IMG/VR virus record: IMGVR_UViG_3300008262_002979
Span: 1-42,290 of that record
Source of the DNA: a virus
DNA length: 42,290 bases
Reading direction: 5' to 3' (one strand)
The notes under the pieces were generated by a model that saw nothing but the letters and a program-made list of their open reading frames with translations, searched no databases and had not been told where the DNA came from. Positions 7,371-30,889 of this stretch are shown piece after piece; the first letter of the stretch is position 1, and each line of letters starts with the position of its first letter. The position numbers were made by a program, and so were the translations under genes.

Positions 7371-7375
7371 TAACT

Positions 7376-7450: not shown

Positions 7451-7534
7451 ATTATAGAAACACATTTAAACAGTCCTTCAACGCTCGGACGCTATCTCCC
7501 TGCCGCAGGGCGGATCTGTATGTGCTTCTATAAT
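7451..7534 (-). ncRNA. structured inter-tRNA RNA sealed by an inverted repeat
   Basis: Arms ATTATAGAAACACA (7451-7464) and TGTGCTTCTATAAT (7521-7534) pair with one G-U and extend by two bases into each flanking tRNA, giving a 16-bp stem. Inside is CCCTG-CGG-CAGGG. It exactly fills the gap between tRNA-Asn and tRNA-Ala. Confidence 0.5.
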
Positions 7535-7611
7535 GGCTGTCCGACTAGGGATCGAACCTAGCTCATTCTTCGTTAACAGCGAAGCGCCTACACCATGCTT
7601 GCTCTCGGACA
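7534..7611 (-). tRNA. tRNA-Asn(GTT)
   Basis: Acceptor TGTCCGA/TCGGACA, anticodon stem-loop CTTCG CTGTTAA CGAAG, T-arm CTAGG TTCGATC CCTAG, G73 and CCA. Confidence 0.92.
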
Positions 7612-7619
7612 ATAAATTT

Positions 7620-7694
7620 TGGCGCCGTAGATGGGAATCGAACCCACCTAAGTCTCGCAGACAACGAGTCACCCTCCCAGAGAGCTACTACGGC
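7620..7694 (-). tRNA. tRNA-Asp(GTC), second copy, atypical loop
   Basis: Acceptor GCCGTAG/CTACGGC, T-arm GTGGG TTCGATT CCCAT, G73 and CCA. The anticodon loop TTGTCTG has T37 where a purine is expected, and the outermost anticodon pair is A-A. GTC is the best reading. Confidence 0.75.
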
Positions 7695-7698
7695 ATAT

Positions 7699-7773
7699 TG
7701 GTACTCCGAACGGGTTTCGATCCCGCTTCTCCAACTTGAAAGGCTGGCGTCCTAGCCACTAGACGACCGGAGT
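7699..7773 (-). tRNA. tRNA-Glu(TTC), second copy
   Basis: Acceptor ACTCCGG/TCGGAGT, anticodon stem-loop CCAGC CTTTCAA GTTGG, D-arm GTCTAGTGGCTAGGAC, A73 and CCA. It differs widely in sequence from the Glu gene at 2833. Confidence 0.9.
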
Positions 7774-12524: not shown

Positions 12525-13526
12525 TTATTTGATCTGTGTCCAAACACGTTCACGAATTTGTTTTGTTAAACTGTCTGGTAGTGCCACATAGTCCAAGTCA
12601 GCGGCATCTTTCTTGCCATTCTTAAATGCCCAATCAAAGAACTTTAGCACTTCATCGCTGGTGGCTTTGCTCTTTGGTTCTTTGTACATGATGATAAAAC
12701 TTGCAGAACTTACTGGCCAAGCATTGGGATTCTTTTGATCTACAATGCTCAGTCCCATACCAGGAACGCTAAACCAATCAGCACCGTCTGCCGCTGCCGC
12801 AAATGTTAAATCATCTGGACTAACATATTTGCCTGATTTGTTTTGTAGTTGTAAGAATACCATGTTGTTCTTCTTAACGTAAGCATACTCTACATAACCA
12901 ATACTACCTTTGATACGATTCACGTTGGCAGCAACACCTTCATTGCCTTTGCCACCCACTGAACTGGCAGCTGGCCATTTAACTGCGGCACCACGACCTA
13001 CTTTACTTAACCATTCAGGACTTACTGTAGCAAGATAGTCTGTCCAGTTAAATGTTGTTCCTGATCCATCAGCACGATGAACAATAGTGATTGGTGCATC
13101 TGGTAATGTCTTGCCTGGATTCAATGCTACTAACTTAGGATCATTCCACTTAGCAATAGTACCCATGAATACTTCTGCCATAACTGGTCCAGTGATACGT
13201 AGTTCGCCTGGCTTGAAACCATCTAAGTTAATAACAGGAACTGTTCCACCAATGATGGCAGGGAATTGTACTTGTCCATTCTTATCTAAATTTTCTCCAC
13301 TTACAGGAGCATCTGTTGCACCAAAGTCTACTGTCTTAGCATTGATTTGGCGTATACCGCCTGAACTACCGATACTCTGATAGTTTAAACTAGTGCCCGT
13401 AGCTTTTTTGTACCCTTCAGCCCATTTAGCGTAAATTGGAAATGGGAATGTAGCACCAGCACCTGTAATGTCTGCGTTTGCTGATAAAGTTACTGCGGCT
13501 AATAAAATTGCAATGAGGTTTTTCAC
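12525..13526 (-). CDS. pstS: phosphate-binding protein PstS
   Basis: 333 aa with a signal peptide (MKNLIAILLAAVTLSANA) and the PstS fold: ITGAGATFPFPIY at the mature N-terminus, SIGSSGGIRQI, FGATDAP and HRADGSGTTFNWTDYL phosphate-binding loops. It is the periplasmic subunit of the Pst ABC transporter; no PstCAB is in view, so it would feed the host's transporter, as known for cyanophage PstS. A Pho-box-like site lies upstream (13577-13594), plus a TAAATA box (13560-13565) and AAGGAG before the ATG. Flanked by its own terminator. Length is normal. Confidence 0.95.
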   Translation of the reverse strand: MKNLIAILLAAVTLSANADITGAGATFPFPIYAKWAEGYKKATGTSLNYQSIGSSGGIRQINAKTVDFGATDAPVSGENLDKNGQVQFPAIIGGTVPVINLDGFKPGELRITGPVMAEVFMGTIAKWNDPKLVALNPGKTLPDAPITIVHRADGSGTTFNWTDYLATVSPEWLSKVGRGAAVKWPAASSVGGKGNEGVAANVNRIKGSIGYVEYAYVKKNNMVFLQLQNKSGKYVSPDDLTFAAAADGADWFSVPGMGLSIVDQKNPNAWPVSSASFIIMYKEPKSKATSDEVLKFFDWAFKNGKKDAADLDYVALPDSLTKQIRERVWTQIK

Positions 13527-13641: not shown

Positions 13642-13857
13642 GTTGTTTATTTTACAAGGTAAGTCCTACCCCGGAGTTGCAGTTTCTTAGGCTGCGATTT
13701 CAAATTGCTCGTCATTCATTGCTGTAATGTCGAAGTCAACTGTGAAATACTCGAATGTATTTGCTTTTGCATTTACTTTGATTTGCTTGGATTACGTCCA
13801 TCGCCTATCGTGTTGCCGTCGCTAACTATTTGCCCAATCGATTACCGGAGCAGGCCC
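13642..13857 (-). ncRNA. ssrA: permuted tmRNA, coding piece
   Basis: The 5' strand GGGCCTG (13851-13857) pairs with CAGGTCC of the acceptor piece, creating the G3-U70 pair that specifies alanine. A D-loop-like CTCCGGTAATCGATTGGG follows. The resume context is AGTAAATGCA with the first GCA at 13768-13770. The tag frame runs 27 codons to TAA at 13687-13689, starting AKANTFEY and ending NDEQFEIAA, and so keeps the Ala-Ala end needed for ClpXP/ClpAP recognition. The tag is longer than the usual ~10-15 residues. No T-arm follows, so the gene is circularly permuted. The 3' end is set by the terminator hairpin; the exact mature end is not known. Confidence 0.82.
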
Positions 13858-13879
13858 AACTAAGCAGTTTCGCACCAAC

Positions 13880-13953
13880 TGGTGGATATAGCGAGAATTG
13901 ACCTCGCATTTTATAGATTCGGAATCCATCTGTCCTACTTGGACGATATACCC
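13880..13953 (-). tRNA. tRNA-Arg(CCG), within the tmRNA gene
   Basis: Acceptor GGGTATA/TATATCC, D-arm GTCCAAGTAGGAC, anticodon stem-loop ATGGA TTCCGAA TCTAT, T-arm GCGAG GTCAATT CTCGC, A73 and encoded CCA. It sits in the intervening segment between the acceptor and coding pieces of the permuted tmRNA, on the same strand. Confidence 0.9.
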
Positions 13954-13964
13954 GAAACCACTTA

Positions 13965-14029
13965 GGTGGACCTGGCGAGATTCGAACTCGCGTCTTGAAC
14001 ACATCCTCTTTGAAGGAATTACAACAATA
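13965..14029 (-). ncRNA. ssrA: permuted tmRNA, acceptor piece
   Basis: The minus strand reads GACGCGAG TTCGAAT CTCGC then CAGGTCC-A-CC, very close to the 3' end of bacterial tmRNA (GACGCGGGTTCAACTCCCGCCAGCTCCACCA type). No complementary GGACCTG-like strand lies upstream; it lies downstream at 13851-13857, beyond the tRNA-Arg, which is the permuted gene order. The encoded end is CCT, so CCA must be completed after transcription. The 5' end is estimated from the promoter. Confidence 0.82.
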
Positions 14030-14099: not shown

Positions 14100-14378
14100 A
14101 TGGGTGATTTCTTTAAAATAGTAGCGGAACTAGGATTCCCAATTGCAGGTGCAATGGCAGCGGGCTACTTTGTTTTTCTAACATTAAAATTTATTCTTGC
14201 TGGTGTAACGTCTAGCGTAAACGGTATGGGCGGCATTATCAAAGGTTTAGACAGTCGTGTTGATACTATGACTAATCAACTACAGCGTATTGATGTTAAA
14301 GTAAGTCACGCTCTAGGCTTACAACCTGATTATGATAGAATTAGTAGAGCAGAACAAGCGGATCAAAGGAAAGACTAA
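14100..14378 (+). CDS. small membrane protein, holin-like
   Basis: 92 aa, starting at the ATG 7 nt after TAGGAG. One hydrophobic segment (residues ~12-38, GFPIAGAMAAGYFVFLTLKF) is followed by an amphipathic, probably coiled-coil tail (SRVDTMTNQLQRIDVKV). The same GFPI-x-A...GYF pattern occurs in the gene at 14557, so the two are paralogues. One TM plus a coiled tail suits a holin or envelope accessory, but function is not known. First gene of a three-gene plus-strand operon with TAATG overlaps. Confidence 0.6.
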   Translation: MGDFFKIVAELGFPIAGAMAAGYFVFLTLKFILAGVTSSVNGMGGIIKGLDSRVDTMTNQLQRIDVKVSHALGLQPDYDRISRAEQADQRKD

Positions 14379-14557
14379 TGAAGTATGTAGACTATGACTG
14401 GGATCTTCACAAAGATAAGATTGTGCTAGATCGCAAACTTAATATTGATAAGTTAGAGTGGCATGCAGGTGATCATTTTGAAGTTAGAAACACAGATGGC
14501 AGAGTAGAACTAGTTAAAGTTGATCCTGTTGTTAAATTTATTAAAGGGTACAAATAA
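14378..14557 (+). CDS. 59-aa acidic protein in membrane-protein operon
   Basis: The ORF starts MKYVDYDWDLHKDKIVLDRK and ends DPVVKFIKGYK. Both ends overlap neighbours by the shared base of TAATG, strong evidence of translational coupling. No signal peptide or TM. The fold is unknown; predicted short beta-strands. Confidence 0.7.
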   Translation: MKYVDYDWDLHKDKIVLDRKLNIDKLEWHAGDHFEVRNTDGRVELVKVDPVVKFIKGYK

Positions 14558-14916
14558 TGGATCCGGTAGAGTTAGTAAACAAATATGGATTCCCCATTGT
14601 TGCCGCAGGCGGCATGGGTTATTTCATTTACTATGTGTGGACATGGGTTACCACAGAAATCAAGCCCGTTATAGGACAAGCTAATGGAACTCTTATTGCT
14701 CTTATTGATCGCATTCGTATGTTGGACAACGACCTTATAAGATTAAATCAAAAGGTTGAAACTGTAATGGAACTACGTGGCAAGACCATTGAACGTGAGC
14801 GTATTGAAGCTGAGAAAGATATTAATCAGACTAGGCGTAGAGAAGATCCTAATCCGCCAATTGGTCCTAAACGTAAAGCAACTAAAGACGAAATTAAAGA
14901 CGCTGCTGGAGATTAA
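14557..14916 (+). CDS. small membrane protein, holin-like paralogue
   Basis: 119 aa. The N-terminal TM (residues ~9-32, GFPIVAAGGMGYFIYYVWTW) matches the first gene of the operon; then a coiled-coil (IRMLDNDLIRLNQKVETVMEL) and a charged, Lys-rich tail. It may form a membrane complex with its paralogue, for example in lysis or envelope remodelling; this is inference. A bidirectional terminator follows at once. Confidence 0.62.
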   Translation: MDPVELVNKYGFPIVAAGGMGYFIYYVWTWVTTEIKPVIGQANGTLIALIDRIRMLDNDLIRLNQKVETVMELRGKTIERERIEAEKDINQTRRREDPNPPIGPKRKATKDEIKDAAGD

Positions 14917-14940
14917 AAAAGGACCCTAAGGGTCCTTTTT
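14915..14940. terminator. bidirectional terminator
   Basis: AAAAAAGGACCC-TAA-GGGTCCTTTTT separates the converging plus-strand operon and the minus-strand cyclase gene and can serve both. Confidence 0.85.
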
Positions 14941-14942
14941 GT

Positions 14943-17006
14943 TTATTTCGACGTTGCTCGGTACGTACCGTCCCAATCTGCGGGTAGGTTTCTAGAGCGC
15001 ATTTCACCAATGCGTTCAATCCACAGTTCGTAGTAGTGATCCATCTTGCTGTCAAACTCGCCTGTAAGTTCGTTACATAATTCAATAGCCTTGTCCCACT
15101 GTTGTTTACGATAGTACTCTAACATTAACTCGTGATGTTCTCTAGCACTGATCCAATCAGCAGCAACAGTAACATCTGGATTGTAGAATACTGTAAAGAT
15201 ATTAACACCAATAGTTTTACCCTTAACAGCGATACAGTCTAGGGGAATAGTAAAGTAGTTGTCACCTACTCGAGCCTGTGTAAACTCACTGATAATAATC
15301 AACACACCATAGTTCTTAGTCTGCCCTTCTAATCGAGCTGTTAAACTAACGCTATCACCTAGTACGTCATAACCAAAGCGATCCTTACTTCCTATGTTAC
15401 CGATCAATGTCTGTCCTGTGTTAATACCTAGTCCGCAACCTACTAATGGCTTGCCTTCTTTGGTTAGTTCAATGTTAAACAACTCAACAGCATGTAACAT
15501 TTCAAGACCTGTACGCACACCTGCAAGCACATGATCCGGATCTTGTTCTTCTTGAATAGGGGCTCCGTGTACGTGTAAACTTGCATCACCAATGAATTTA
15601 ATTAAACAACCATTGTTGCGTAGGATAGGTTCTGCAATAGCAGTCATGTAGCGATTCATTGTGTTAGTAAACGCCACAACGTCATCGCCATAAGTTTCTC
15701 CTAAGCCAGTGAAGTTACGCATGTCGCTCATGATGACAGTGAGATCACGCTTCTCTCCGCCTAGTTTAATAAAGCTAGGATCTTTCTGTAGTCGTTCAAC
15801 AATAACAGGGTTTACATAACTACCAAACTGTTTCTTAATCTGCGACTTTTGCAAGAACTCACTTACAAACTTGATGCCATAGGCATGCAAAGCGACCAAA
15901 GTTGTGATAACTGCAAAGGCAGTAGCATCGAATAGGAATAGAAGATGACTATAAGCATAAATGCTGCCAGCAATACCCCCACCGACCAATACAACCACTG
16001 AGGCAAGTCCAACATATGTCCACCTTGTTAAAAATAGTAATAGTACACCTGCTATTAGTATAGCCATTATTTCTAAATCATTTGCGTAGCCGGGACGCTG
16101 AATATTACTTTGTGTAATCATAGTGCCAATGACTGCACCTTGTAAGTATTGTGGCCATACTTCGCCCTTGGCTGTACTGACTGGATTAACTAATCCGGCA
16201 GCACTAAGTCCAACGATAACAATGCCGCCATCAAATGATTCTGGCAACTTCATGTAGCTGTACTCTCGAGGAGTAGCTGACCAGTCAATCCAAACACGAC
16301 CTAGATCGTCTGTAGGTATTTTACCAAACTTAGGAACACGCACAGCTTCTACACCCATGTCCCCAATCTTAACTTGGAACTTAGGATCTTTGGCAGCTAC
16401 ACGTAGCGTTTCTAATGCTAGGCTAGGATGCAGTTGTTCTTGACTTAGTATGACCATTGGCATACGACGAACAACACCATCAATCTCTGGGAATGTGTTA
16501 ACTACACCAACACCAGCAGCTAGACTTTCTTGTGGCTCAACGTTGCTGATAAATCCAGGATACTCTACAACTAGGCCTTTTGGATCCATGCCAATAGCCT
16601 GCGCTGGGCTTCCATGATTAGTATTCTTTTGTTTCTCACTACCCAGTGTAGGTAACACTACAGGATATTTTTTAAGAGTTTCACCTAATACAGCATCTTT
16701 ACCAAAGCGATCTTTCTCTGGCATTAGCACGTTGAATACAACTAAGCCGGCTTCACGCTTGTAAAGTTCTTTAATAATGTCAGCATACATGTCTCTAGGA
16801 AACGGAAACTGTCCTAGCTTATCTAATGTAGCTTCGTCAATGTTAACTGTATAAACAGGAACATCTTTAGCCTGCTGGCTTGTGATTAGTTGATCAAAAT
16901 AACGCAGTCTTACTGATTCTATGAAACTAGGATCTGCAATACGAATTAAGAGTAATAATGCTAAAGTGGCGATTGCTAGCCAAGGGGATAATAATATTTT
17001 CTTCAT
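14943..17006 (-). CDS. CHASE2-domain class III adenylate cyclase
   Basis: 687 aa. An N-terminal TM is followed by an extracytoplasmic CHASE2 sensor (about 25-315, with YTVNIDEATLDKLGQFPFPRD), three TM helices (~325-395) and a class III cyclase domain (~405-610). Metal Asp residues are visible in VIMSDMRNFT and IGDASLHVHG; Lys in IKFIGD and Asp in YDVLGD fit ATP specificity. The transition-state Asn is replaced by Ser (GDSVSLTARLE), so activity may be low. It ends the curli-like operon and could report envelope or fibre state through cAMP. A TAAATA box (17011-17016) lies 4 nt before the ATG, with no Shine-Dalgarno. I know of no common phage counterpart. Confidence 0.88.
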   Translation of the reverse strand: MKKILLSPWLAIATLALLLLIRIADPSFIESVRLRYFDQLITSQQAKDVPVYTVNIDEATLDKLGQFPFPRDMYADIIKELYKREAGLVVFNVLMPEKDRFGKDAVLGETLKKYPVVLPTLGSEKQKNTNHGSPAQAIGMDPKGLVVEYPGFISNVEPQESLAAGVGVVNTFPEIDGVVRRMPMVILSQEQLHPSLALETLRVAAKDPKFQVKIGDMGVEAVRVPKFGKIPTDDLGRVWIDWSATPREYSYMKLPESFDGGIVIVGLSAAGLVNPVSTAKGEVWPQYLQGAVIGTMITQSNIQRPGYANDLEIMAILIAGVLLLFLTRWTYVGLASVVVLVGGGIAGSIYAYSHLLFLFDATAFAVITTLVALHAYGIKFVSEFLQKSQIKKQFGSYVNPVIVERLQKDPSFIKLGGEKRDLTVIMSDMRNFTGLGETYGDDVVAFTNTMNRYMTAIAEPILRNNGCLIKFIGDASLHVHGAPIQEEQDPDHVLAGVRTGLEMLHAVELFNIELTKEGKPLVGCGLGINTGQTLIGNIGSKDRFGYDVLGDSVSLTARLEGQTKNYGVLIIISEFTQARVGDNYFTIPLDCIAVKGKTIGVNIFTVFYNPDVTVAADWISAREHHELMLEYYRKQQWDKAIELCNELTGEFDSKMDHYYELWIERIGEMRSRNLPADWDGTYRATSK

Positions 17007-17016
17007 TATATATTTA

Positions 17017-17499
17017 CTATCTAACTATCATAGCGAAAGTAAACATCACTGTAGGAACAGCTATTGCCATGAAACTTGTACCTATAAGCACTCTATCTAT
17101 CATGTCAGATTGTGCTTGAATCCTAGCATTTTTAATGTCTGCTTCTAGTTTAGCACGTTCCTTATACATACGCACACGCTCGGCCATCATTTCATCCCAA
17201 ACATCTTTGTTCCCGGACCATATCAACATCTCTTTTAATTCTTTTTCAGCATCACGTAGAGCCTTGCTTTGCATGGCAATCTGAACTGACATAGCTCTAA
17301 TCTGTCCGTCTGTAAGAATCTTTTTACTGTTTTGTGCCGCGACATTAGCACCATGAATCTTATCGCTGTTTTCAAAGAACTTGGCAAACTGTCCGTAGAG
17401 GCTGTTAACGTCTTTGCCTAGAGCAATGGCTTTTTTGATATAGCCCACTGACTGCTGTGCGGCTGTGAAGGCAATGCCAAGTGTGATAGGATCAATCAT
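17017..17499 (-). CDS. 160-aa coiled protein with C-terminal TM
   Basis: The ATG at 17499 is preferred to an upstream in-frame codon because it overlaps the previous stop (ATGA) and has AAGGAG upstream. The protein starts MIDPITLGIAFTAAQQSVGY, has long charged helices (residues ~60-130), and a hydrophobic C-terminus (FMAIAVPTVMFTFAMIV). It looks like a tail-anchored membrane protein. Family unknown. It lies between the adhesin and the cyclase, so it may couple them. Confidence 0.65.
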   Translation of the reverse strand: MIDPITLGIAFTAAQQSVGYIKKAIALGKDVNSLYGQFAKFFENSDKIHGANVAAQNSKKILTDGQIRAMSVQIAMQSKALRDAEKELKEMLIWSGNKDVWDEMMAERVRMYKERAKLEADIKNARIQAQSDMIDRVLIGTSFMAIAVPTVMFTFAMIVR

Positions 17500-17660
17500 G
17501 TTTTCTTGGGCTCCTTGTCCTTGGGTGGCTTTTGCGGTTTGTCCCATTCTAAACATACCACTCGACGATTGTAAACATCTCCCGTCCACGTCCACTTCAC
17601 ACACCTTGGTTCTTGGGCTAACATACCTGCCAACATCAATGAACCAATGGCGTTAAACAT
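17496..17660 (-). CDS. 54-aa small protein in the curli-like operon
   Basis: The ORF starts MFNAIGSLMLAGMLAQEPRC and ends KPPKDKEPKKT. A short hydrophobic N-terminus could be a signal or anchor; the rest is basic and Pro/Lys-rich. It starts 1 nt after the adhesin stop and ends by ATGA overlap with the next gene, so it is well embedded in the operon. Confidence 0.6.
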   Translation of the reverse strand: MFNAIGSLMLAGMLAQEPRCVKWTWTGDVYNRRVVCLEWDKPQKPPKDKEPKKT

Positions 17661-17661
17661 A

Positions 17662-19571
17662 CTATGGTCCTGTGCCCTGTGTTACTGAAACACTACATCC
17701 GGCTAATGTAGCACACTGTTGAGTAATGTTAATGTTTTGTGCTGTAGTGCCTTGTTGTATTAGATTAACTGTGCTAGACCCGCCAGCATTGGTTAAGTTA
17801 ACTGTGGCCTTGTGGCTACCTGCATCCTTTTGATTAGCAGAGACATTGTGTCCGTTGCCAGTTAATGCCAAATCAAAGTAACTGCCTGAACCTTGTTGTG
17901 TAACATCAAACACGTTGGTATTACCATTGACGATGCCAAAGAATGTTTTCTCACCATTACCTATTTGCTTTAGTGAAGCATTGTTGCCCGTGCCAGTAAC
18001 ATCAACATAGGCAAAATGGCCACTAGTAGTGCCGCCATCATTGCTCTGTTTTAAGGATATTGTGTTTGTGTTGCCGTTGATGTTTAAGCCCATATAGTGA
18101 CCACCACTTTCACTACCATCTTTTAATCCTGTTGTAGGGCTACGTGATTGCCATATAGTAACATTATTAGTGTTACCCTTAATGGCAAACTCAATAAGAT
18201 TTTTTCCTAGTGTGTCACCTTGCTTGATATTAACTGTGTTACTAGAACCTTCAAGTGTTGCATAAGTAGTTCCGCCTAGACCTGAAATCTTATTGTAAAA
18301 TCCAGTCTGTTCTACAGTAACTGAGTTATTACTACTGCCAATCTTTTCTTCAACATATAAACTGTTGCCCAAAGAAACATTGCTTACACGACCTTTGGCT
18401 GAATTTTTCTGTGTAGTTTGATTTACAGTGATATCACTAGTTGCGGGCCAAGTAGGAGCACAGTCGGCACAAACGCTGCCAGCTTGTCCTGGGTTACTAG
18501 GAGTTCCGCCTGAACCTGTAGCAGTCGAAGTTACTCCATCATTTAAATCATAGTAGTAGGTGACTTCACCAATCTGCATACTGTCATAGGGTAATGCACA
18601 TTGTCCAGTACAACCTGCTGGAGCATTGCCTGCTTTAGTCGTAGGGAATAGAATGAAGTAGTAAACATAGGCAGTGGTGTTGCCTGTTTGTATCTCAGGG
18701 CTAGTCCAGTAGCGTGACTCACTTAGGTGGTGTTGCCTGTTTGTATCTCAGGGCTAGTCCAGTAGCGTGACTCACTTAGACTTAGTGAGTCTTGCTTAAT
18801 CAATGTCCAAGTAACGCCGTCATTTGATCCGTATAACTTATAGCTTGTAGGATCACGACCTGAAAAGTCATTGGCAGTGGTAATAGTAAACTTTTGAACT
18901 ACACGACCTTGACTCAGTTTGACAGTAACACCTGCGTTAGCCTTGTCAAAGTTTAGATACTTGGTGTTAGGATTGCCGTCGAAAGCATTGGCAGCACCTT
19001 CACCGGGAGGACTGTTATTGCTTGTAGGATAGATGTTGCTGATAACAACAGGATTACTGTTAGTATTAACTGTTTGCCAATCAACTGTCGGCGTTGCCGG
19101 TGCTGCTGTTTGCCCTGCTGCTAGTGGAGTTGAACTGGCATAAGTGTAATTGTTTAGATCTGTACTTGTAACGCTAGTATCCATATTAGTAAAACTAGCA
19201 CTTGACCCGTAGCTATACCCTTGTGCTGTAGTAATAACATTGCCAAAGAATCCACTAGCGCCATTACCTAAAGCAGTGATATCACCGGTATCGTGTACAA
19301 TGCTGTGCTGTGTACCGTTGCTGTTCATCAACTTTAATCCGTAAGTGCCAGGATTAGTTGTGCTGGCAAAGAATTGAAAATATTGTCCTGCTGTAGTCGT
19401 AACAGTTTGAAAGTTTTTATTGTAAGGTGCAATAAAGTTGCTGGCGTTTAATGTTGTTCCACTCCAATTATACTGCACATCAAATATTTGGTTGATACCA
19501 AACTTACCGTCAGTGATGGCAGCAAATGCATTAGAGCATACGAACATTAAGGCTAATAATATCTTTTTCAT
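17662..19571 (-). pseudogene. discoidin plus curlin-repeat adhesin, frameshifted by 53-bp duplication
   Basis: Two ORFs (19571-18723 and 18579-17662) are one gene interrupted by an exact 53-bp tandem duplication (18674-18779). Removing one copy restores 619 codons (618 aa). The product has a signal peptide (MKKILLALMFVCSNAFAA), an F5/8 type C (discoidin)-like domain (about 200-310, NFDKANAGVTVKLS ... YKLYGSNDGVTW ... MQIGEV), a Cys pair (CADC) and curlin-like repeats to the end (NTNNVTIWQ, NTNTISLKQ, GNNASLKQIGN). It starts by ATGA overlap with fecR. A sugar-binding head on an amyloid-forming tail fits a surface adhesin. As assembled it is broken after ~282 residues; phase variation or assembly error are both possible. 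Confidence 0.8.
18674..18779. repeat. 53-bp exact tandem duplication
   Basis: Copies at 18674-18726 and 18727-18779 are identical. As 53 is not a multiple of three, the repeat shifts the reading frame of the adhesin gene and introduces TAA at 18723-18725. Confidence 0.95.
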
Positions 19572-20734
19572 CTGAAGTTCTGATTGATAACAATCTGCCC
19601 TACTGCTTTGCCGCTACTGAAGTTCCAACTGTTAGTCTGCATATCCTGCGTTACAATCACCTGCACTTGTGTATTCATTGGCATAACCACATTAGCATAA
19701 TGACGACTAGTAGGGCTCAGACTTTCGTACATCCAGCCCACTTGTTGTGTTTCGCTTTTGTCTTTCCACAATTTAAACAAATAGGGATTTTCTGTTTCAC
19801 TAACTGCGGCCACTTGGCTAGCTAATGTTTCTTCTTTAGTGTCTAACCCAACTTTAGTTCTATTGTCAGGATCTTCGTCACCTTCGTTGGCACTACGACC
19901 CTGCTTTGATGAACGAGCACCGCCGCCTTCTTTGTTGGCAGCGTGTTGGCGTTCTTCCTTAGCATCATCCTTGTCGTCTTTTTCGTCCTTCTTGTCTTTG
20001 TTATCACCTTTCTTAGCATCACCAGTAGCTTGTGCGGCAGCACGAGCGGCAGCAATAACATTTAAGCCAGTAGTTGTTCGTGGCGGATTAACCATTAGGT
20101 TGTTGCCAATAGCCATACCGTTAAGGGCAACAATAACAGCAGGACTAGGAACACCATTTAGTGTTTCAACTAGGGTGGCTTGATAAGGACGATTCAACTT
20201 AACAATGCCTGCTGGTGTTTCTACATCGATAGCACCACTGCCACAGGTAAGTCCTTTTAAGTTTACGTTCTGTTCTATTTCACAAGTGGGCATTAGCATG
20301 ATCATACTGGCACCTGTTTCGCTAACAGCCATGACAAAGTCAGTGCCACGAACAGCAATAGCCGCTGTTGGTGTATTAATTTTTACATTCTTAGGATCTT
20401 TGGCAATACTGCCTGATACGTATCGCACAGTACCTGCGGCTGCTTTAAGACCTAGTTTACCTGCGCCGCTTTTAGGATCATATACGAAATCATCAATAAC
20501 AAGGCTACTCGACTCAGTAACAGTAACATTTGTATCGTCTTTAAAAACGATCTTAACTTTTCCATTCTTAGTTTCGATCTTGTCGTTGGTTTTAATTTCT
20601 GTGCCTTTGACAATTTGAATTGTGTCCTTACCACGTTTGATGATAGCAGTGCCACTGGCTTCTGTAACAGAGCCAATGTCTGCCCAAGCCGAACCGGATA
20701 TCATCAAGCCTACGATAAGAGCAACAACTTTCAT
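19568..20734 (-). CDS. FecR-domain secreted protein
   Basis: 388 aa with a signal peptide (MKVVALIVGLMISGSAWA). Residues ~20-140 form a FecR domain (IGSVTEASGTAIIKRGKD, then INTPTAAIAVRGTDFVM). A strongly charged Lys/Asp/Glu linker (~240-275) precedes a smaller C-terminal domain. FecR-domain proteins act in the periplasm or cell surface, often beside CHASE2 cyclases or surface polymers. Here it sits between the curlin protein and the adhesin, with tight spacing. A role in sensing or anchoring the fibre is inferred. Confidence 0.82.
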   Translation of the reverse strand: MKVVALIVGLMISGSAWADIGSVTEASGTAIIKRGKDTIQIVKGTEIKTNDKIETKNGKVKIVFKDDTNVTVTESSSLVIDDFVYDPKSGAGKLGLKAAAGTVRYVSGSIAKDPKNVKINTPTAAIAVRGTDFVMAVSETGASMIMLMPTCEIEQNVNLKGLTCGSGAIDVETPAGIVKLNRPYQATLVETLNGVPSPAVIVALNGMAIGNNLMVNPPRTTTGLNVIAAARAAAQATGDAKKGDNKDKKDEKDDKDDAKEERQHAANKEGGGARSSKQGRSANEGDEDPDNRTKVGLDTKEETLASQVAAVSETENPYLFKLWKDKSETQQVGWMYESLSPTSRHYANVVMPMNTQVQVIVTQDMQTNSWNFSSGKAVGQIVINQNFR

Positions 20735-20743
20735 TGTTAGCCC

Positions 20744-21604
20744 TTAGTTGGTCTTTTGGTTAATGTTCCAGGTTCCAGTACTGGCCACACTCTTAATATT
20801 AACAACACTGTCAACAGTTCCAGACTGGTTAACGGTAAATCTGTTGGTGCTGCCTGTAACGTCAATCCAAGCACTGCTACCTGCTGTTCCTGTGCTTGTT
20901 TGGCTAACATTGAATACGTTGAAGTCACCAACAACTTTTATTGTCTGTGATTGATTGTTACCAATAGCATCAATATAAAACTCATTGCTATTGCCGGCTG
21001 CATCTACATTGCTGTTAAGATTGTCGCCTGTACCACGGAATTGCATAACGTTAGTATTTCCTGCAAACTTCCAGTTTAATACAGCATCTTTACATCCTGT
21101 TAGAGCAGTAGTTCCATTGCTGGCTGTGCCACCTCCGCAGGCTGCATCAACTAAGTTGCTATTACCGATCTGCTGAATAGTAATATTAACACCGTCACCT
21201 GCAGTTGTAGGATTTTCTGCTCTTAGACCAATTGTGTTATTATTACCTGTCTGAACTGTGACAACAGTTTGATCTCTACCTCTTAGATACACAGGACTGC
21301 TTAATGTCCAAGCTCTTGTTGTTGGAGTTCCTAATCTGTTAGGAATGCCAGTTAGTTCTTTAGTGTGAGTGGTGTCTGCGCCTACAGTATTTCCTGTACC
21401 TGTTTGTGTGATATTGATATTTGGATTCTCACCACTTTGATCAATAAACACTCTGTTAGTAGCACTTAGAGCTAATGCACTAGCAGCGTTAGGGCTAACA
21501 GTAGCTACCGAAGGGATTGTAGGAGCAGTTGGGGCTAGCACCTGTTGTTGCGCCATTGCTGGGAACGCTGTCAATATTGCTAATACTAATAATATTTGTT
21601 TCAT
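20744..21604 (-). CDS. curlin-repeat amyloid subunit (CsgA/B-like)
   Basis: 286 aa with a signal peptide (MKQILLVLAILTAFPAMA). Repeats follow the curlin pattern N-x-x-x-I-x-Q-x-G-x-x-N: PNINITQTGTGNTV, TVVTVQTGNNNTIG, VNITIQQIGNSNLV, FNVFNVSQTSTG, NRFTVNQSGTVD. Spacing between repeats is irregular, with insertions, unlike E. coli CsgA. Expected to be secreted by the CsgG/CsgF pair encoded just upstream and to polymerise outside the cell. AAAGGAAA precedes the ATG. Confidence 0.82.
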   Translation of the reverse strand: MKQILLVLAILTAFPAMAQQQVLAPTAPTIPSVATVSPNAASALALSATNRVFIDQSGENPNINITQTGTGNTVGADTTHTKELTGIPNRLGTPTTRAWTLSSPVYLRGRDQTVVTVQTGNNNTIGLRAENPTTAGDGVNITIQQIGNSNLVDAACGGGTASNGTTALTGCKDAVLNWKFAGNTNVMQFRGTGDNLNSNVDAAGNSNEFYIDAIGNNQSQTIKVVGDFNVFNVSQTSTGTAGSSAWIDVTGSTNRFTVNQSGTVDSVVNIKSVASTGTWNINQKTN

Positions 21605-21753
21605 AATGTTTCCTTTGGACTCGAATGTCCGTTGTGTATTTTATTTAAAAGGAACGTCTCATAGATAAACTACCGCTGTTATTTTTCTAACATGTAAAAA
21701 AATTTACTGTAAAATTTTTTACACCCCAGTCTGATTATTTTTCTTTATTCTTT

Positions 21754-22692
21754 TTATTTCCAGAACTGGATTCTTCCCCAGATACTCTTCTCTTTGCTTC
21801 CTTCAACACCTGCTCCGATATTGGACTGCTGTGGTGCGGGTGTAGTTTTGGGGGATTCTTTAGTCTTGGTTTGTGTTTGAACCAACTCATTGGACTTCTC
21901 CTTGAATTGCCATAAACCGTTACGTTCGCCTTTCTTAATTAACTCAATAACTGCTGTTTCAATTGCTGAACGTAGGGCATAGTTACCTGGCTCGTTAAAT
22001 GTTTGGCTTGAATCAAATTCAAATGCCTGTGTTGCCTGGTTGAAAAACTTCAACGCTGTAGCACCATCTGCGGTGCTGAGCAAGTTCTTTTCTACTGTAA
22101 CAGTAGTTAAAACTTCTCCAGTTTGTACACTTACTAGACGTAGGCTAATAACAACCACGTCTTGCGTGTAGGCTGTAGATGTCCCAATACCCAACCAACG
22201 AGCACCTGTGCCGCCTGTTAGTGTATTGCTGTTATAATCGATGATACCGCCTTCTAAAATAACGCCTGCCATTTGTAGTGGAGGCAACGGTTTGGCATTT
22301 GCGCCTTCATAGATCTCACGTGTCTGTTTGATCATCTGACGCTCTTTCAACAAGTTGTCTAGGCCGACACGCTCAACAACTGTGAACCATTGTCGGTTGC
22401 CGACTTCTTGTAAACTCTTCATTAGGTATGCTTCAGCACCCTGTGTAACTGCTGTACTAAACAAACTCAATGTTGAACTTGGCTTACGCTGTCCAGTTAG
22501 GTCCTTGAAACCATATACAGCTACGGTTACTGCCGGACCTGCTGGCGCAGGCACATTAACAAAACTTTTATTGATTGTTTCACTAACTTTAGCTTCTTCT
22601 TTGATTTGTGTACTGCCCCATGGACGTACTGTAGAGCAACCTGCTAATGCTACTACTGCTAGTGTGATTAAGGATAATTTGATTGCTTTCAT
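21754..22692 (-). CDS. csgG: curli secretion channel CsgG
   Basis: 312 aa. Lipoprotein signal (MKAIKLSLITLAVVALAGC) and the CsgG body: VAVYGFKDLTGQRKP, QGAEAYLMKSLQEVG, WFTVVERVGLDNLLKERQ and GVILEGGIIDYNSNT all match the family. It forms the nonameric outer-membrane pore for curli subunits. A C-terminal extension (~270-312) is Lys/Thr/Pro/Gln-rich and not typical. It lies 9 nt after csgF. No CsgE was found. Confidence 0.92.
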   Translation of the reverse strand: MKAIKLSLITLAVVALAGCSTVRPWGSTQIKEEAKVSETINKSFVNVPAPAGPAVTVAVYGFKDLTGQRKPSSTLSLFSTAVTQGAEAYLMKSLQEVGNRQWFTVVERVGLDNLLKERQMIKQTREIYEGANAKPLPPLQMAGVILEGGIIDYNSNTLTGGTGARWLGIGTSTAYTQDVVVISLRLVSVQTGEVLTTVTVEKNLLSTADGATALKFFNQATQAFEFDSSQTFNEPGNYALRSAIETAVIELIKKGERNGLWQFKEKSNELVQTQTKTKESPKTTPAPQQSNIGAGVEGSKEKSIWGRIQFWK

Positions 22693-22701
22693 ATGTTTTC
22701 C

Positions 22702-23181
22702 TTAAAAACTAAAACTAGCAATTGGAACTACGACAGTCGTAACAGTGCCTTTAACATCTACTACTGTTAGAGTAACTCGATCATTGGCTTTTGTCCAGGT
22801 AACAGTATTACCGTCTAAGCGGAAATTACCAGTTGTTGGATTCACACATCCTGGTATGGCTGAGCCATCTGCGGCACTGCATTTATTTTGAAATAGATTG
22901 CTGCTCAACTGTGTAGCTAGTTGAGCATATACTTGACTTTGGAATAGACTCATAAATCTATTCAAAGGTGTGTTTAGCAATTCTGCTTCTGCTTTGGCAA
23001 TAGCAGATTTTTTATCTGCTTCTATAGCATCACGACGTGACTTTTCGATACTGTCGATTGTTAAAACGTGACTGCTAAATCCAATGCCGCTAAAGGCTGG
23101 ATTTTTAAATTGATGTACTAATTCTGCATGAGCCGCAGTAGCTAATAATATCAGACTGACTGATACTAGGATGTTTCTCAT
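22702..23181 (-). CDS. csgF: curli assembly factor CsgF
   Basis: 159 aa with a signal peptide (MRNILVSVSLILLATAAHA). The mature start ELVHQFKNPAFSGIGFSS matches the CsgF N-terminus (TFQFRNPNFGG) that plugs the CsgG pore, and the C-terminal strands (VTLTVVDVKGTVTTVVVPIASF) match its end. First gene of the curli-like operon. AAGGAG upstream; a TAAATA box lies at 23210-23215. Somewhat longer than E. coli CsgF. Confidence 0.88.
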   Translation of the reverse strand: MRNILVSVSLILLATAAHAELVHQFKNPAFSGIGFSSHVLTIDSIEKSRRDAIEADKKSAIAKAEAELLNTPLNRFMSLFQSQVYAQLATQLSSNLFQNKCSAADGSAIPGCVNPTTGNFRLDGNTVTWTKANDRVTLTVVDVKGTVTTVVVPIASFSF

Positions 23182-23244: not shown

Positions 23245-23613
23245 TTAAAGTAGTATATACCAAGCTATAACAAGGTATGATGTTTGATGCGCTAGTTGAT
23301 CTAGGCCGAACTGATTCCAAAACAAAGGCTTAGTATTGTCTTTGCAACCGTACTTTACCTTAGTGTAATCTATAAGGTAATGATAGAAACCTTCTAATAC
23401 GGCTACTGCAATAATTGTAAATGCTGGAATAGGATGGTAAAAACTAAACAAAAATAAACAGACTAGCGTAGTCCAAATATGATCAGCAGTATGACTCATG
23501 CCAACAGGATCTAGCCAGACTCCTTTTTTAACAGTCTGCATGTATGTTTGTATTTTGAAATCAGCGTACCAGTGCTTGATTTGAAATAACAATAAAAGTG
23601 CTAGTATTTCCAT
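23245..23613 (-). CDS. DUF3307-like membrane protein
   Basis: 122 aa, mostly hydrophobic, with about three or four TM helices. His and Asp residues within helices (LLLFQIKHWYADF, MSHTADHIWTTL, YHYLIDYTKVKYGCKD, LDQLAHQTSYL) fit DUF3307-type membrane proteins. Function unknown. A TAAATA box (23620-23625) lies 6 nt before the ATG, with no Shine-Dalgarno. Confidence 0.6.
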   Translation of the reverse strand: MEILALLLLFQIKHWYADFKIQTYMQTVKKGVWLDPVGMSHTADHIWTTLVCLFLFSFYHPIPAFTIIAVAVLEGFYHYLIDYTKVKYGCKDNTKPLFWNQFGLDQLAHQTSYLVIAWYILL

Positions 23614-25288: not shown

Positions 25289-25966
25289 TTAGCGTATTTC
25301 TGGGAACAAGCATTCCTGAATAAACACACGCACATCTTCCTCGTCTAATCCCAAACTAGCCATAACTTTAGGTGTATGCGGATTTTGTTTCTGATTAATA
25401 GCATAGAAGTTTTGTGCTTCTCTAGAATCGCCCATAGCGGTTGTTTCGCCTACACACTCTGTGTAGTGATTTACTAGAATCTGTGCTAAACTTGCAATTT
25501 GCTGTAATTCAGTTTCATCGCTAACATTACCAGCTGCAATCATATTTTTACTAAAAATACGTTCTGCCCACTCAGGCAATTTTCTGGGTTTATTCCATTC
25601 GTATTTGCTTACTTCGTCTGCAAAGTAGCCAATCATAGGATGTTTAGGGTTAGTGGTTGGGCTGTAATCAATAAAGCAGCCTGTGATCTTATTCTTACCA
25701 GCAATAACATCAAATCCAAAAATAGGCGCAGGATTGTGTGTATGTGGAAATACACAGCAATGCATCATCCATAAGCCTTTGGTTTCACGGGCATCTACAA
25801 CATCAATGTGTGCCCTGCGATAATTTTTGCTAGTCCAAACACGATTGATCCAGCCGGGCTGGTTAAAGCGATCCATGCCTGATTCAAATGTTTCTGTACC
25901 CGTTTCGCTGAATCTCTTTTCTAATAAGTGCTGAATATCAATCAGCGTATTCCATACATTACTCAT
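25289..25966 (-). CDS. ferredoxin-dependent bilin reductase (PcyA/PcyX-like)
   Basis: 225 aa. The core LWMMHCCVFPHTHNPAPIFGFDVIAG aligns with PcyA ([23 protein letters not shown]): the His88 and Asp105 equivalents are present, while the Glu76 position is Asp (AHIDVVD). The C-terminal PEWAERIFS and YAINQKQNPHTPKVM also match PcyA. It reduces biliverdin from the adjacent heme oxygenase to a phytobilin. The arrangement recalls viral pcyX next to ho genes. ATG at 25966 chosen because the upstream in-frame start is TTG; it overlaps the heme oxygenase stop by 8 nt. Confidence 0.85.
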   Translation of the reverse strand: MSNVWNTLIDIQHLLEKRFSETGTETFESGMDRFNQPGWINRVWTSKNYRRAHIDVVDARETKGLWMMHCCVFPHTHNPAPIFGFDVIAGKNKITGCFIDYSPTTNPKHPMIGYFADEVSKYEWNKPRKLPEWAERIFSKNMIAAGNVSDETELQQIASLAQILVNHYTECVGETTAMGDSREAQNFYAINQKQNPHTPKVMASLGLDEEDVRVFIQECLFPEIR

Positions 25967-26513
25967 CGACAAACTCAACTAACTTCATCATGTCTTTAAA
26001 CGTGTCTGCGGCAAAACCAAAACATACAATAGCTTCTTCTGCAAGACTGTCATCTAATTTGCTACGCAGTATATTTTTGATTTCTTCAGGGTTACCATCG
26101 AATTGATAGTACTTACCAGATCCGGGTACACGTTTACTAATCATTTGTCCGCCTGACAAATCACCAAAGTGTCTAACATACAAGTGTGCTAGTATTTTCT
26201 TAGGGTCATCTTTGATAGACATTAGATGAGCATGATACCGTTTTACCATTGGTAATTCTTCTGGCATTGTTGTCTTATCATCCCACAGTTCTTCAAAGTC
26301 AGCATAGATGCTTGGCGCCCTACGAATAGTAGGATAGTCATTCATCAAGCCATGCATCATAGCAATGGCTTCTAGTAAATCATATTGTTTGTGTTGGTTG
26401 TACAAAAACACAGCATACAGTTTAGGATCAATTTTACCTGAAAACAGTATCTTAACAAACGGCTGTGTCTCTGCGCTTCGGTGTGCTTCGTGTGTTAGTT
26501 CTTTTAAGCTCAT
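25959..26513 (-). CDS. heme oxygenase
   Basis: 184 aa, heme-oxygenase fold. The proximal heme His lies in LTHEAHRSAE (residue ~11) and the distal-helix signature is RHFGDLSGGQMI (~127-138). It opens heme to biliverdin, CO and Fe2+ using a ferredoxin-like donor. It starts by ATGA overlap with clpS and feeds the downstream bilin reductase. In a heterotroph phage the likely benefits are iron release or making a bilin for a photoreceptor; this is inference. Confidence 0.93.
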   Translation of the reverse strand: MSLKELTHEAHRSAETQPFVKILFSGKIDPKLYAVFLYNQHKQYDLLEAIAMMHGLMNDYPTIRRAPSIYADFEELWDDKTTMPEELPMVKRYHAHLMSIKDDPKKILAHLYVRHFGDLSGGQMISKRVPGSGKYYQFDGNPEEIKNILRSKLDDSLAEEAIVCFGFAADTFKDMMKLVEFVDE

Positions 26514-27394: not shown

Positions 27395-29260
27395 TTAGTT
27401 AACTTCGGTAAACTCTGCGTCTACTGGAGTTTCATTTTTTGCAGCTTCTTCTTTCTTGTTCTTAGCTTCCATGATAGGTTGAGCGGCAGCAAACAAGTCA
27501 CTTAACTTTTGTGTGATAGTATCTTTATCTTCTCCAGCTAGTGCTTCATTAACTGCTTTGATAGCGTCTTCTACTTTATCTTTAGCTTCTTGACTGACAT
27601 CAACTTCTGCCATGTCTTTTCTAATGCTATGAATTTGTGCTTCTGCTGTATTACGGGCTTCGATTAGTTGACGCTTCTTCATATCGTCTTCTGCATTAGC
27701 CTCGGCTTCTTGTACCATGCGTTCGATTTCTTCTTTGCTAAGTCCGCTATCACTCTTAATAGTGATTTTGTTTTCCTTACCAGTGTTCTTGTCTTTAGCA
27801 CTAACGTGCATAATACCGTTAGCATCAATATCAAGGGTAACTTCAATTTGTGGCATACCACGCATAGCTGGCGCAATACCTTCTAAGTTAAACTCACCTA
27901 ATAGTTTATTGTGTTGTACTAGTTCACGCTCACCTTGGAATGCTTTAATTGTAACAGCTGGCTGGTTGTCTTCTGCTGTTGAAAAAACTTGACTTGCCTT
28001 AGTCGGGATAGTCGTATTTTTCTGAATTAACTTGGCCATAATGCCACCCATCGTTTCAATACCAAGACTTAACGGAGTTACATCGAGCAACAGTACGTCA
28101 TTACGATCGCCTGCTAGTACTGAGCCTTGTACGGCTGCACCTGCGGCAACTGCTTCGTCAGGATTAACATCTTTACGTGGTGCTTTACCGAATAGTTTCT
28201 CTACAGTCTCTTGGACCTTAGGCATACGAGTCATACCGCCAACTAGGATAACTTCGTCAATTTCATCTAGACTAATACCAGCATCTTTAATAGCAGTTTG
28301 GCACGGACCTACTGAACGTTGAATTAATTCATCAACTAACTGCTCTAGTTTAGCACGAGTTAGTTTAACGTTCATGTGCTTAGGACCACTTGCATCTGCT
28401 GTAATGTATGGCAAATTAACGTCTGTCTGAGCTGAACTAGACAATTCAATCTTTGCCTTTTCAGCGGCTTCTTTTAAACGCTGTAATGCTAGAGTATCTT
28501 TCTTAAGATCAACGCCGTTGTCTTTCTTAAACTCGTCAACTAAGAAGTCCATGATGCGTTGGTCAAAGTCTTCACCGCCTAGGAATGTATCACCGTTAGT
28601 AGATAATACTTCGATTTGCTTATCGCCATCGACGTCGGCAATTTCGATAATAGATACGTCGAATGTACCGCCACCTAGGTCATATACCGCAACTTTACTA
28701 TCTTTTTTATCTTTCTTATCAACACCGTAAGCCAGTGCAGCCGCTGTTGGCTCGTTGATAATACGTAGAACTTCTAGGCCTGCAATTTGTCCTGCGTCTT
28801 TAGTAGCTTGACGTTGACTGTCGTTAAAGTATGCTGGAACTGTAATAACAGCTTGTGTTACTTCGTGACCCAAATAATCTTCAGCAGTCTTTTTCATCTT
28901 ACGCAAGACTTCTGCTGAAATCTGCGGAGGTGCAAGTTCCTTGCCGGCTGCGCTAACCCATGCATCGCCGTTGGCTGCTTCCATAATAGTATATGGCATT
29001 AGACCAATGTCTTTTTGTACAGCAGACTCTTTGAACTTACGTCCGATTAGTCGTTTGCTAGCATAAATTGTATTTTTGGGGTTTGTTACTGCTTGACGCT
29101 TTGCGCTTGCGCCTACTAGAATTTCATCATTAGCGTATGCAACAATACTAGGTGTAGTACGTGCGCCTTCTGAATTTTCAATTACTTTTGCGACTCCATT
29201 TTCAATAATCGCTACGCATGAATTTGTTGTACCTAAATCGATACCGATGACTTTGCTCAT
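27395..29260 (-). CDS. dnaK: Hsp70 chaperone DnaK
   Basis: 621 aa, full length. Nucleotide-binding domain with [45 protein letters not shown] and [11 protein letters not shown]; substrate domain from about residue 390 ([17 protein letters not shown]); C-terminal acidic helix. Folding ATPase acting with DnaJ/GrpE, which are not in view, so host co-chaperones are needed. It could also replace HscA for the IscU encoded at 37817. Phage-encoded complete DnaK is rare. Confidence 0.97.
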
Positions 29261-29327: not shown

Positions 29328-30305
29328 TTAATTATTCCAACCAACTTCTTTTATGATAGGAATCCACTGTTTTCGTAAATCCATCATGCTTGCTTCAAAG
29401 CCCTTGGGGTTTTGCTCCCTAGGTTCTGCAAACATTAGATTATCTTTAATAAACTGCTTGCCCTCGGGGCTGTTAATAGCAGTTCTAAAATTTGTTACAT
29501 ACCAATTAATAATGTCCTTATTTGTACCTTTAGGGAATATAATACCCCAAGCTGCATAGACATTCATCCCTGGAACAAAGTCTTTCATTAGAGGTACATC
29601 TTTAAGACCCTCTATTCGATATTCGCTAGTAAGTGCAATAATTTTAACCTTACCTGACTTAACTAACGTGTTAGCCACAGCTACTGGAATAATGCCAAAT
29701 TCTAGATGTCCGCCAGCAACATCTTGTCCTGCCTGTGCTGGACCTTTGTAAGGCACTGTTTTAATAAGTTCTCTATTGCCTTTAATATTATACATCATAT
29801 ATTCGTAGGCAAGTTTATGGGCACCTGAGCCAGCGGCAATACTAATTGGCTTTTGCGGATTCTTCATACGATCCATAAATTCTCTAGGAGTATTTGTAGG
29901 ACTTTCGTGATGTGCAATAATAGCAAGAGGACTCTTTGCTAGTGTTAGTCCGTATTCAAAATCGTCTAACGCATACTTTTTATTTTCTGGGTTAGCAAAT
30001 TCCGCAGTTACCCAAATACCTTGATGGCTTGCAACATAAATGTGATACCCATCATTTGGCTGCTTAATAAAATGATTCATACCAATGGTTCCGTCACCGC
30101 CAGGACGATTTTCTACAATAAAGTTAATTTTAGGATTAGCTTTTTCTATAAGACTGCTAAATCCTCTAAAACTAAGTTCATTACCTGAGCCAGGAGCAAA
30201 TCCTATAACTGCGGTTACAGGTTTAGTTGGTTCCCAAGCGTGTGCTGTTAATGTAATTGATGTTGCTAAAATTACTTTAATAAAGTTACTAATATATCTG
30301 ACCAT
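29328..30305 (-). CDS. TctC/Bug-family solute-binding protein
   Basis: 325 aa from the ATG at 30305, which gives a signal peptide (MVRYISNFIKVILATSITLTAHA). Tripartite tricarboxylate transporter binding fold: VIGFAPGSGNELSFR, VENRPGGDGTIGMNHF, VPYKGPAQAGQDVAGGHLEF. Such proteins are hugely expanded in Burkholderiales and bind carboxylates in the periplasm. No TctA/TctB partner is present. It overlaps the upstream sulfotransferase-like gene by 34 nt. It could feed a host transporter. Confidence 0.9.
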   Translation of the reverse strand: MVRYISNFIKVILATSITLTAHAWEPTKPVTAVIGFAPGSGNELSFRGFSSLIEKANPKINFIVENRPGGDGTIGMNHFIKQPNDGYHIYVASHQGIWVTAEFANPENKKYALDDFEYGLTLAKSPLAIIAHHESPTNTPREFMDRMKNPQKPISIAAGSGAHKLAYEYMMYNIKGNRELIKTVPYKGPAQAGQDVAGGHLEFGIIPVAVANTLVKSGKVKIIALTSEYRIEGLKDVPLMKDFVPGMNVYAAWGIIFPKGTNKDIINWYVTNFRTAINSPEGKQFIKDNLMFAEPREQNPKGFEASMMDLRKQWIPIIKEVGWNN

Positions 30306-30889
30306 TTGTTGTTTACCTCTATACGTTGTCCAAAGTTTTGTTCTATCCATTTGGGTGTAAAATAATTCCAAGTTAGTTCGTGATTGCTGGCAAATTGTAA
30401 AATATCAGTATTTTGTTTTACAATCTCTCCTAGCATAGTAGCACTATTCTTGTATGCTGAGTAATTAGGATATTTAATATTAAATCCACCCGCTTCGTGC
30501 CACCATGCATAACTGATCATATCAGGTCGATAAACTAACATAATCCAATTGTCCGGATACACATCTCGTATTGTTTGTAATTTATGAGCCCACTCATGAC
30601 TCTTTACTAGTTTACATCCTGTAGAAGTTAACCAGGCATTGTCAATATATTTTGGATCTAAGTATGACTCAAACTCCATACCTTTGCCAAAGTATGCACC
30701 TTTGTGCCCTGTAAATCCGCTGTGATTAAATTCTCTAGTAGGAGTTCGATCACTAGTATTGAATCCTGTTAACGATTCGATAGTCTGTGCAATACCACTC
30801 CATCTACTACCAGGTACGCCTGTAAGGAAAATTCTATTAGGCAGTTCTATGCCATTCTGCATAGAGTCTTGGTTTTGTTGGATGTTCAT
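30272..30889 (-). CDS. sulfotransferase-like P-loop protein
   Basis: 205 aa. A strand plus loop RIFLTGVPGSRWSGIA near residue 19 fits the 5'-PSB loop of sulfotransferases, which bind PAPS. ATG at 30889 taken because the longer frame starts at TTG. It is part of a chain of overlapping genes with the methyltransferase (53 nt overlap) and TctC. Acceptor unknown; cell-surface glycans are plausible. Confidence 0.6.
   Translation of the reverse strand: MNIQQNQDSMQNGIELPNRIFLTGVPGSRWSGIAQTIESLTGFNTSDRTPTREFNHSGFTGHKGAYFGKGMEFESYLDPKYIDNAWLTSTGCKLVKSHEWAHKLQTIRDVYPDNWIMLVYRPDMISYAWWHEAGGFNIKYPNYSAYKNSATMLGEIVKQNTDILQFASNHELTWNYFTPKWIEQNFGQRIEVNNKWSDILVTLLK

Follow-up and report, generated by a model that had tools for sequence, protein, structure and literature searches.

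A probable curli-like secretion and fiber cassette with a FecR protein and a CHASE2 cyclase in a T4-like phage fragment

The window analyzed here, the whole of the 42,290-bp IMG/VR virus record IMGVR_UViG_3300008262_002979 (positions 1–42,290), carries on its minus strand, at 14943–23181, genes for CsgF, CsgG, a curlin-repeat protein, a FecR-domain protein, a discoidin-curlin adhesin, two small proteins, and an adenylate cyclase with a CHASE2 domain. A preliminary description, made from the letters alone, had assigned these genes to one operon combining a secretion pore, fiber subunits, a lectin-like head, and a CHASE2 cyclase; all of the genes were found where it had put them, each named domain was confirmed by Pfam, and the combination is supported. 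The unit, however, reaches past the left edge given there, where a convergent mini-operon lies on the plus strand (14100–14916).

The csgF gene (22702–23181, −) encodes a secreted accessory protein of 159 residues (Pfam CsgF, 2e-11) in which the motif ELVHQFKNPAFSG follows the signal peptide in the alignment; no PDB chain was matched by the CsgF profile. CsgG (21754–22692, −) is an outer-membrane pore lipoprotein of 312 residues with the lipobox LAGC (Pfam CsgG, 3e-51), and matches the CsgG structure 6lqh in the PDB at 1e-45. The first curlin-repeat protein (20744–21604, −; 286 residues) possesses a signal peptide, a CsgB match in NCBIfam (4e-6), and a conserved G/N/Q ladder, with the motif QxGxxN occurring three times against 0.19 in shuffled sequences; its Pfam curlin match is weak (0.024). 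A CsgG pore, CsgF, and curlin-repeat subunits with signal peptides, all of them components of a curli system, are thus present.

The exported FecR-domain protein (19568–20734, −; 388 residues; Pfam FecR, 5e-10) is followed by the adhesin gene, the start of which overlaps the FecR stop codon by 4 bases (ATGA). In the window, this gene is divided into a 5′ piece (18723–19571, −), which encodes a signal peptide, a beta-rich region, and the first part of a discoidin/CBM32-like head (Pfam F5/8-type-C, 2e-11, covering positions 5–83 of 127 of the profile, within which the piece ends), and a 3′ piece (17662–18579, −; frame open from 18747), which encodes the end of the head and a curlin-repeat tail (Pfam Curlin_rpt, 4e-5). 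The two pieces correspond to residues 1–287 and 270–613, respectively, of an intact relative of 614 residues (L010). A perfect tandem duplication with a 53-bp unit (18674–18779, −) shifts the adhesin frame, since 53 is not divisible by 3. It does not occur in any of the 12 relatives examined, and may either be real or have arisen in assembly. In most relatives the adhesin is one open reading frame (ORF) of about 460–790 residues, some being shorter. Thus, the single discoidin/curlin adhesin of the preliminary description holds for most relatives, but in this record the protein is split.

A structure of the adhesin was modeled with AlphaFold on an intact relative (L005), with a mean predicted local distance difference test score of 66 and an N-terminal region poorer than the head and tail. 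In the PDB, the head of this model matched CBM32 modules of the galactose-binding type with E-values of 4e-6 to 1e-5 and TM-scores of about 0.7–0.78 on the target. Both the sequence profile and the jelly-roll fold of the CBM32/discoidin type are therefore found in the head, which, from its fold and family, would be expected to bind sugars.

Both of the small proteins described earlier are present: a 54-residue ORF (17496–17660, −) that overlaps the next gene and has a counterpart of 52–54 residues at the same place in four other loci (L005, L007, L010, and L013), and a helical accessory protein (17017–17604, −) of 160–195 residues, with a transmembrane (TM)-like segment in the C-terminal part (residues 176–194) and a likely ATG start at 17499 that gives the 160-residue form. 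The accessory protein showed no informative Pfam match, its only family match being phrog_32327 (function not known). The cassette ends with the CHASE2 adenylate cyclase (14943–17006, −), a protein of 687 residues with three TM-like segments and a conserved C-terminal tail (Pfam CHASE2, 1e-35; class III cyclase, 7e-14). Directly upstream of csgF, a DUF3307 membrane protein is encoded (23245–23613, −; Pfam, 1e-7).

The convergent mini-operon comprises three genes with overlapping stop and start codons: p119a (14100–14378, +), which encodes a protein of 92 residues with one TM-like segment and a conserved C-terminus; a 59-residue ORF (14378–14557, +), which overlaps the stop and start codons of both neighbors; and p119b (14557–14916, +), which encodes a small membrane/coiled-coil protein of 119 residues that matches phrog_18771 at 1e-32 and has no TM-like segment above the cut-off. 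Between the mini-operon and the cyclase gene lies a hairpin terminator with an 11-pair stem and a T run (14916–14940), the top site in the scan. The p119a and p119b proteins are distant paralogues of one another, strongly conserved out to pelagiphage HTVC008M and methylophage Melnitz, and relatives of the 59-residue ORF occur in 129 loci, in 126 of which they adjoin p119. No significant match to p119 was obtained in Pfam or NCBIfam.

At least 584 CsgG relatives were confirmed in one scan, and 129 distinct csgG loci were compared, of which 41 have full flanks (at least 3 kb upstream and at least 8 kb downstream). All 41 of these phage loci possess csgF, a curlin gene, and fecR; the cyclase gene is present in 37, p119 in 35, and the DUF3307 gene in 29. 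Relatives of the accessory protein occur in six, so that only some of the cassettes include it. The same gene order, which the preliminary description had proposed to look for in other phage contigs, recurs at over 100 separate viral csgG loci, which excludes chance. In the reverse direction, p119 served as the only query, and loci with 9 kb or more on each side were considered (n = 42); exactly two p119 genes and a cyclase gene were found in 42/42, and csgG was seen in 37, the remaining five running off the fetched stretch. The position of the pair differs between loci: in marine-type loci p119a/b immediately precede csgF and share its strand, and in window-type loci they are downstream and convergent, the marine and freshwater labels being taken from isolates rather than sample data. 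Among 50,697 phage records, CsgG, FecR, the CHASE2 cyclase, p119a, and p119b coincide in six (four Melnitz strains and two HTVC008M), the p119 pair being found in no others; three further matches of the cyclase search are to the cyclase domain only. In Mosig, the nearest HTVC008M relative, which infects the same host and is included in these records, none of the cassette genes (CsgG, FecR, cyclase, or p119) was found. The p119 pair is a previously unexamined component, constant in every testable locus and not found in the nearest cassette-free relative. Searches for promoters gave no signal, with three sites for the T4 late promoter TATAAATA against 4.3 expected and sigma-70 promoters at chance level.

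The window is a fragment of a large T4-like phage. It contains 30 tRNA genes, covering most amino acids and crowded into less than 8 kb (89–7773, −), as well as genes for a phage-type ribonucleotide reductase small subunit and 2-oxoglutarate oxygenases. On the same fragment as the cassette are also encoded a heme oxygenase (25959–26513, −), a full-length DnaK (27395–29260, −), a TctC solute receptor (29328–30371, −), and a PstS phosphate-binding protein (12525–13526, −). In an intergenic region (13840–14010), there are sequences resembling tRNA T-arms (e.g., gcgagattcgaactcgc) that were not called by ARAGORN, and that are possibly degenerate or unusual tRNAs. The guanine-plus-cytosine (GC) content is uniform over the cassette and its flanks, with composition unchanged at the cassette borders, and therefore gives no sign of a chimeric junction. 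Genes for the T4-type major capsid protein Gp23 and terminase are carried by four other cassette contigs (383, 327, 250, and 168 kb), and two isolated phages, HTVC008M and Melnitz, bear the same cassette. The assignment to a phage genome made in the preliminary description therefore stands, and the linkage to capsid and terminase genes that it sought exists on the contigs of relatives, but not in the window itself, which has no recognized capsid gene within its 42,290 bp. Well beyond pelagiphages, the cassette also occurs in T4-like phages whose contigs reach 383 kb.

A chimera with bacterial DNA had been named as what would overturn the description, and it is considered here together with a bacterial curli operon captured recently. 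In favor of such an origin are the lack of a recognized capsid gene in the window and the split adhesin, possibly an assembly fault; against it are the isolates, the structural genes on relatives' contigs, and the more than 100 phage loci, and further evidence comes from CsgG itself. In a tree of 44 CsgG proteins, a branch (support 100/98; 200/200 bootstrap trees) separated 34 of phage type from those of the sampled Alpha- and Gammaproteobacteria, so that the CsgG of the window falls within a phage-specific clade, as specified for the pelagiphage-type type VIII secretion module; the bacterial sample is small, and the published alphaproteobacterial origin lies outside its reach. CsgG was detected in only 6/385 and 5/369 sampled genomes of these two classes, and ten curli loci from them showed no FecR, CHASE2 cyclase, or p119 within roughly 8 kb, as far as the contigs extend, with p119a also not found in the ten genomes. 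Contamination by bacterial DNA or chimerism is thus ruled out as a candidate by the even GC content, the relatives' structural genes, the number of phage loci, and the separate clade, and the chance that the cassette arose in this way is close to negligible. Since the phage CsgG clade is separate and CsgG occurs in few of the sampled bacterial genomes, the module is, as judged from these sequences, an old phage lineage rather than a recent host capture, a view consistent with the published transfer of the module between phage families (PMC9599517).

Three metagenome-assembled genomes with the full phage gene order were considered as candidates for recent host capture (Rhodobacteraceae Water_Bin34, a Pirellulales genome, and a Flavobacteriaceae genome) and rejected as phage contigs in bins, because the matches are on short contigs with p119 genes. 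The Rhodobacteraceae bin (G016; L106, L107, L446, L447, and L449) has four CsgG contigs, at least three of them with the phage gene order and p119, and seems to contain phage contigs. Conversely, the 1,499-bp record OR851715.1, labeled as a Salmonella phage, carries csgG and is probably a bacterial fragment.

With a probability of roughly 0.55, the cassette is a phage type VIII (curli-like) secretion and fiber cassette used in infection, which would place sugar-binding amyloid fibers on infected cells and sense the envelope through cyclic adenosine monophosphate (cAMP). For secretion the sequence evidence is strong; fiber formation, the binding target, and the benefit are inferred. In this scheme, CsgG and CsgF would form an outer-membrane channel, and both curlin proteins, the first and the one with the head, would reach the periplasm through Sec, leave it by the channel, and polymerize on the surface of the infected cell. 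The head would display its sugar-binding module outside, most likely retaining neighboring cells or particles near a cell about to lyse. Through periplasmic FecR and CHASE2, the cyclase would respond to the condition of the envelope or of the secretion process, and its cAMP would adjust host physiology; the p119a/p119b pair would supply the inner-membrane part of the unit, as a scaffold, a gate, or a link to lysis. The roles suggested in the preliminary description, namely a coat on infected cells, aggregation for spread, a block to superinfection, and cAMP signaling of fiber status, are likewise hypotheses. Phage-encoded curli have been reported several times without an agreed function.

Several observations weigh against this assignment. 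A model of the first curlin protein gave no significant fold match in Foldseek, and the adhesin gene is split in the record analyzed. CsgE was found in 0/13 large phage cassette contigs, as the preliminary description had said of this locus; as a control, CsgE is present in 5/5 sampled Gammaproteobacteria with CsgG and in 0/5 sampled Alphaproteobacteria. Gating must therefore differ from that of Escherichia coli. Of 28 phages, 13 have the canonical transition-state Asn in the cyclase motif GDxVN, and 15, among them that of the window and Melnitz, have Ser instead. In addition, clumping was not observed in culture by the authors of the Melnitz study (PMC9004378); as no head is recognized in the Melnitz protein, this result does not test versions that possess one.

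The head is a direct clue to purpose, as its binding target should reveal what the fibers are for. Across the 37 adhesin-slot proteins compared, head and tail identities are uncoupled: in one group (L018, L020, L022, and L025) heads are 86–91% identical and tails 53–58%, in another (L014, L017, and L032) tails are 78–83% identical and heads 35–42%, and L035 combines a head at 82% with a tail at 35%, CsgF at 40%, and FecR at 48%. Heads are of discoidin/CBM32 type in 15/39 and PA14 in 2/39, HTVC008M being one of the two, and in the second curlin protein of Melnitz (338 residues) Pfam finds none. At the level of sequence, heads (CBM32-like, PA14, and others) thus vary independently of the curlin tail and of the remaining cassette, the pattern expected for a recognition module, and the exchangeable head offers a directly testable handle. 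The same anatomy would also serve a superinfection shield, in which fibers or heads cover the surface glycans of the infected cell itself and block receptors to competing phages. This function, proposed previously (PMC9599517), fits swapping heads as an adaptation to varied surface sugars, but some heads are not recognizable as sugar binders, and it is considered rather unlikely. Other variation occurs around the adhesin slot. In two loci (L049, 12907–19501; L052, 12866–20834), the adhesin and cyclase genes are separated by several additional genes, and two compact cassettes (L059, 12474–13220; L060, 6239–6817) have unrelated genes in the slot; Pfam matches in the adhesin-slot set include one metallophosphatase and one DUF4337, and the L059 protein begins with a phosphoesterase-like motif.

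The p119 pair may act as an inner-membrane scaffold, as a gate replacing CsgE, or as a link to lysis. In a report on pelagipodophages, one or two "histidine kinases" were described as always preceding csgF (PMC9599517). No HisKA/HATPase match was found at E ≤ 5 in eight p119 family members, and since the pair lacks a kinase domain, the published kinase is probably a misannotated p119 protein, judged by position. Short membrane and coiled-coil proteins in tandem occur in some holin/antiholin pairs, and p119a/b show this layout. A lysis-timing role, with the CsgGF pore as a pinholin- or secretin-like device, the p119 pair as holin-like helpers, and the fibers secondary, was proposed for Melnitz (PMC9004378). 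It is doubtful, however, as the match of p119 to a holin PHROG is not significant (0.088), and the joint retention of two exported curlin proteins, a swapping lectin head, FecR, and a cyclase would be left unexplained; the Melnitz authors thought the fiber genes absent (PMC9004378), yet curlin proteins are annotated in Melnitz.

In the cyclase, the metal-binding pair D428 and D474, the adenine-specifying K470, and the transition-state R558 are invariant, and the enzyme is likely, though not certainly, active, the uncertainty arising from the replacement of the catalytic Asn by Ser. Compared with the window, seven loci (L014, L024, L038, L052, L054, L055, and L080) show that two versions of the catalytic domain (GDxVN and GDxVS) accompany similar CHASE2 halves, which suggests domain exchange. 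FecR adjoins a CHASE2 cyclase in five Firmicutes/Clostridia loci as well, and this adjacency suggests a receptor–ligand pair independent of curli; in the literature searched, FecR with CHASE2 was mentioned incidentally only, in two papers. FecR has also been taken to point to iron, with the pore serving the uptake of large nutrients (PMC7029224, PMC9599517), and the PstS and TctC binding proteins are encoded nearby in the window. No sigma-factor partner of FecR, whether FecI or other, and no TonB partner were seen, and FecR is exported and co-conserved with the fiber proteins, leaving uptake a highly improbable role. In one locus (L038), pstS lies inside the cassette, immediately before the cyclase gene.

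Returning to secreted, sugar-binding fibers, a broader proposal can be put forward tentatively: many aquatic phages may possess an old, phage-owned amyloid apparatus with an exchangeable lectin head, a FecR–CHASE2–cAMP sensor, and an obligatory, phage-only inner-membrane pair that replaces a CsgE-type gate or couples secretion to lysis. Infected cells would then act as adhesive traps with a selected sugar specificity.

The preliminary description knew of no such system in phages, but CsgF and CsgG are annotated in HTVC008M, and the gene order has been published for this pelagiphage, for Melnitz, and for pelagipodophages (PMC7029224 in 2020; PMC9004378 and PMC9599517 in 2022). From E. coli curli (csgBAC/csgDEFG), with which it shares CsgG, CsgF, and curlin repeats, the cassette in the window differs in lacking CsgE, CsgC, and CsgD and in possessing FecR, the CHASE2 cyclase, a head-bearing curlin protein, and the p119 pair. 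The CsgG/HfaB-like proteins of Caulobacter and Brevundimonas jumbo phages belong to the same CsgG superfamily but are only 25–28% identical and have no FecR, cyclase, or p119 matches; these phages of stalked bacteria (Brevundimonas phages ON529851–ON529860 and Caulobacter phages CcrPW and CcrColossus) possibly use them in relation to the holdfast. Much closer are HTVC008M and other pelagimyophages (PMC7029224, PMC9599517), which share the order csgF-csgG-curlin-FecR-curlin-cyclase and p119a/b. The CsgG of HTVC008M is about 42–47% identical to that of the window, and its second curlin protein also bears a head of a sugar-binding type, although this is PA14 rather than CBM32-like, and its p119a/b genes precede csgF in the same orientation, those of the window being convergent and downstream. 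The Methylophilales phage Melnitz (PMC9004378) has the same six genes in the same order, p119a/b, and the same Asn-to-Ser change in the cyclase; unlike in the window, no head is recognized in its second curlin protein, and the cyclase and CsgG are 40% and 45% identical, respectively. For HTVC023P-type pelagipodophages, which are small podophages, the order HK(s)-CsgF-CsgG-CsgA/B-FecR-(CsgA/B-AC), where HK is histidine kinase and AC adenylate cyclase, was reported (PMC9599517) and resembles that of the window, with the HK, from its position only, probably of the p119 family. No description of head exchange or of the p119 operon was found in these three papers (PMC7029224, PMC9004378, PMC9599517). 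Overall, systems of this kind are known, and the cassette represents a variant arrangement, in which the exchangeable head and the constant p119 pair are newly brought out.

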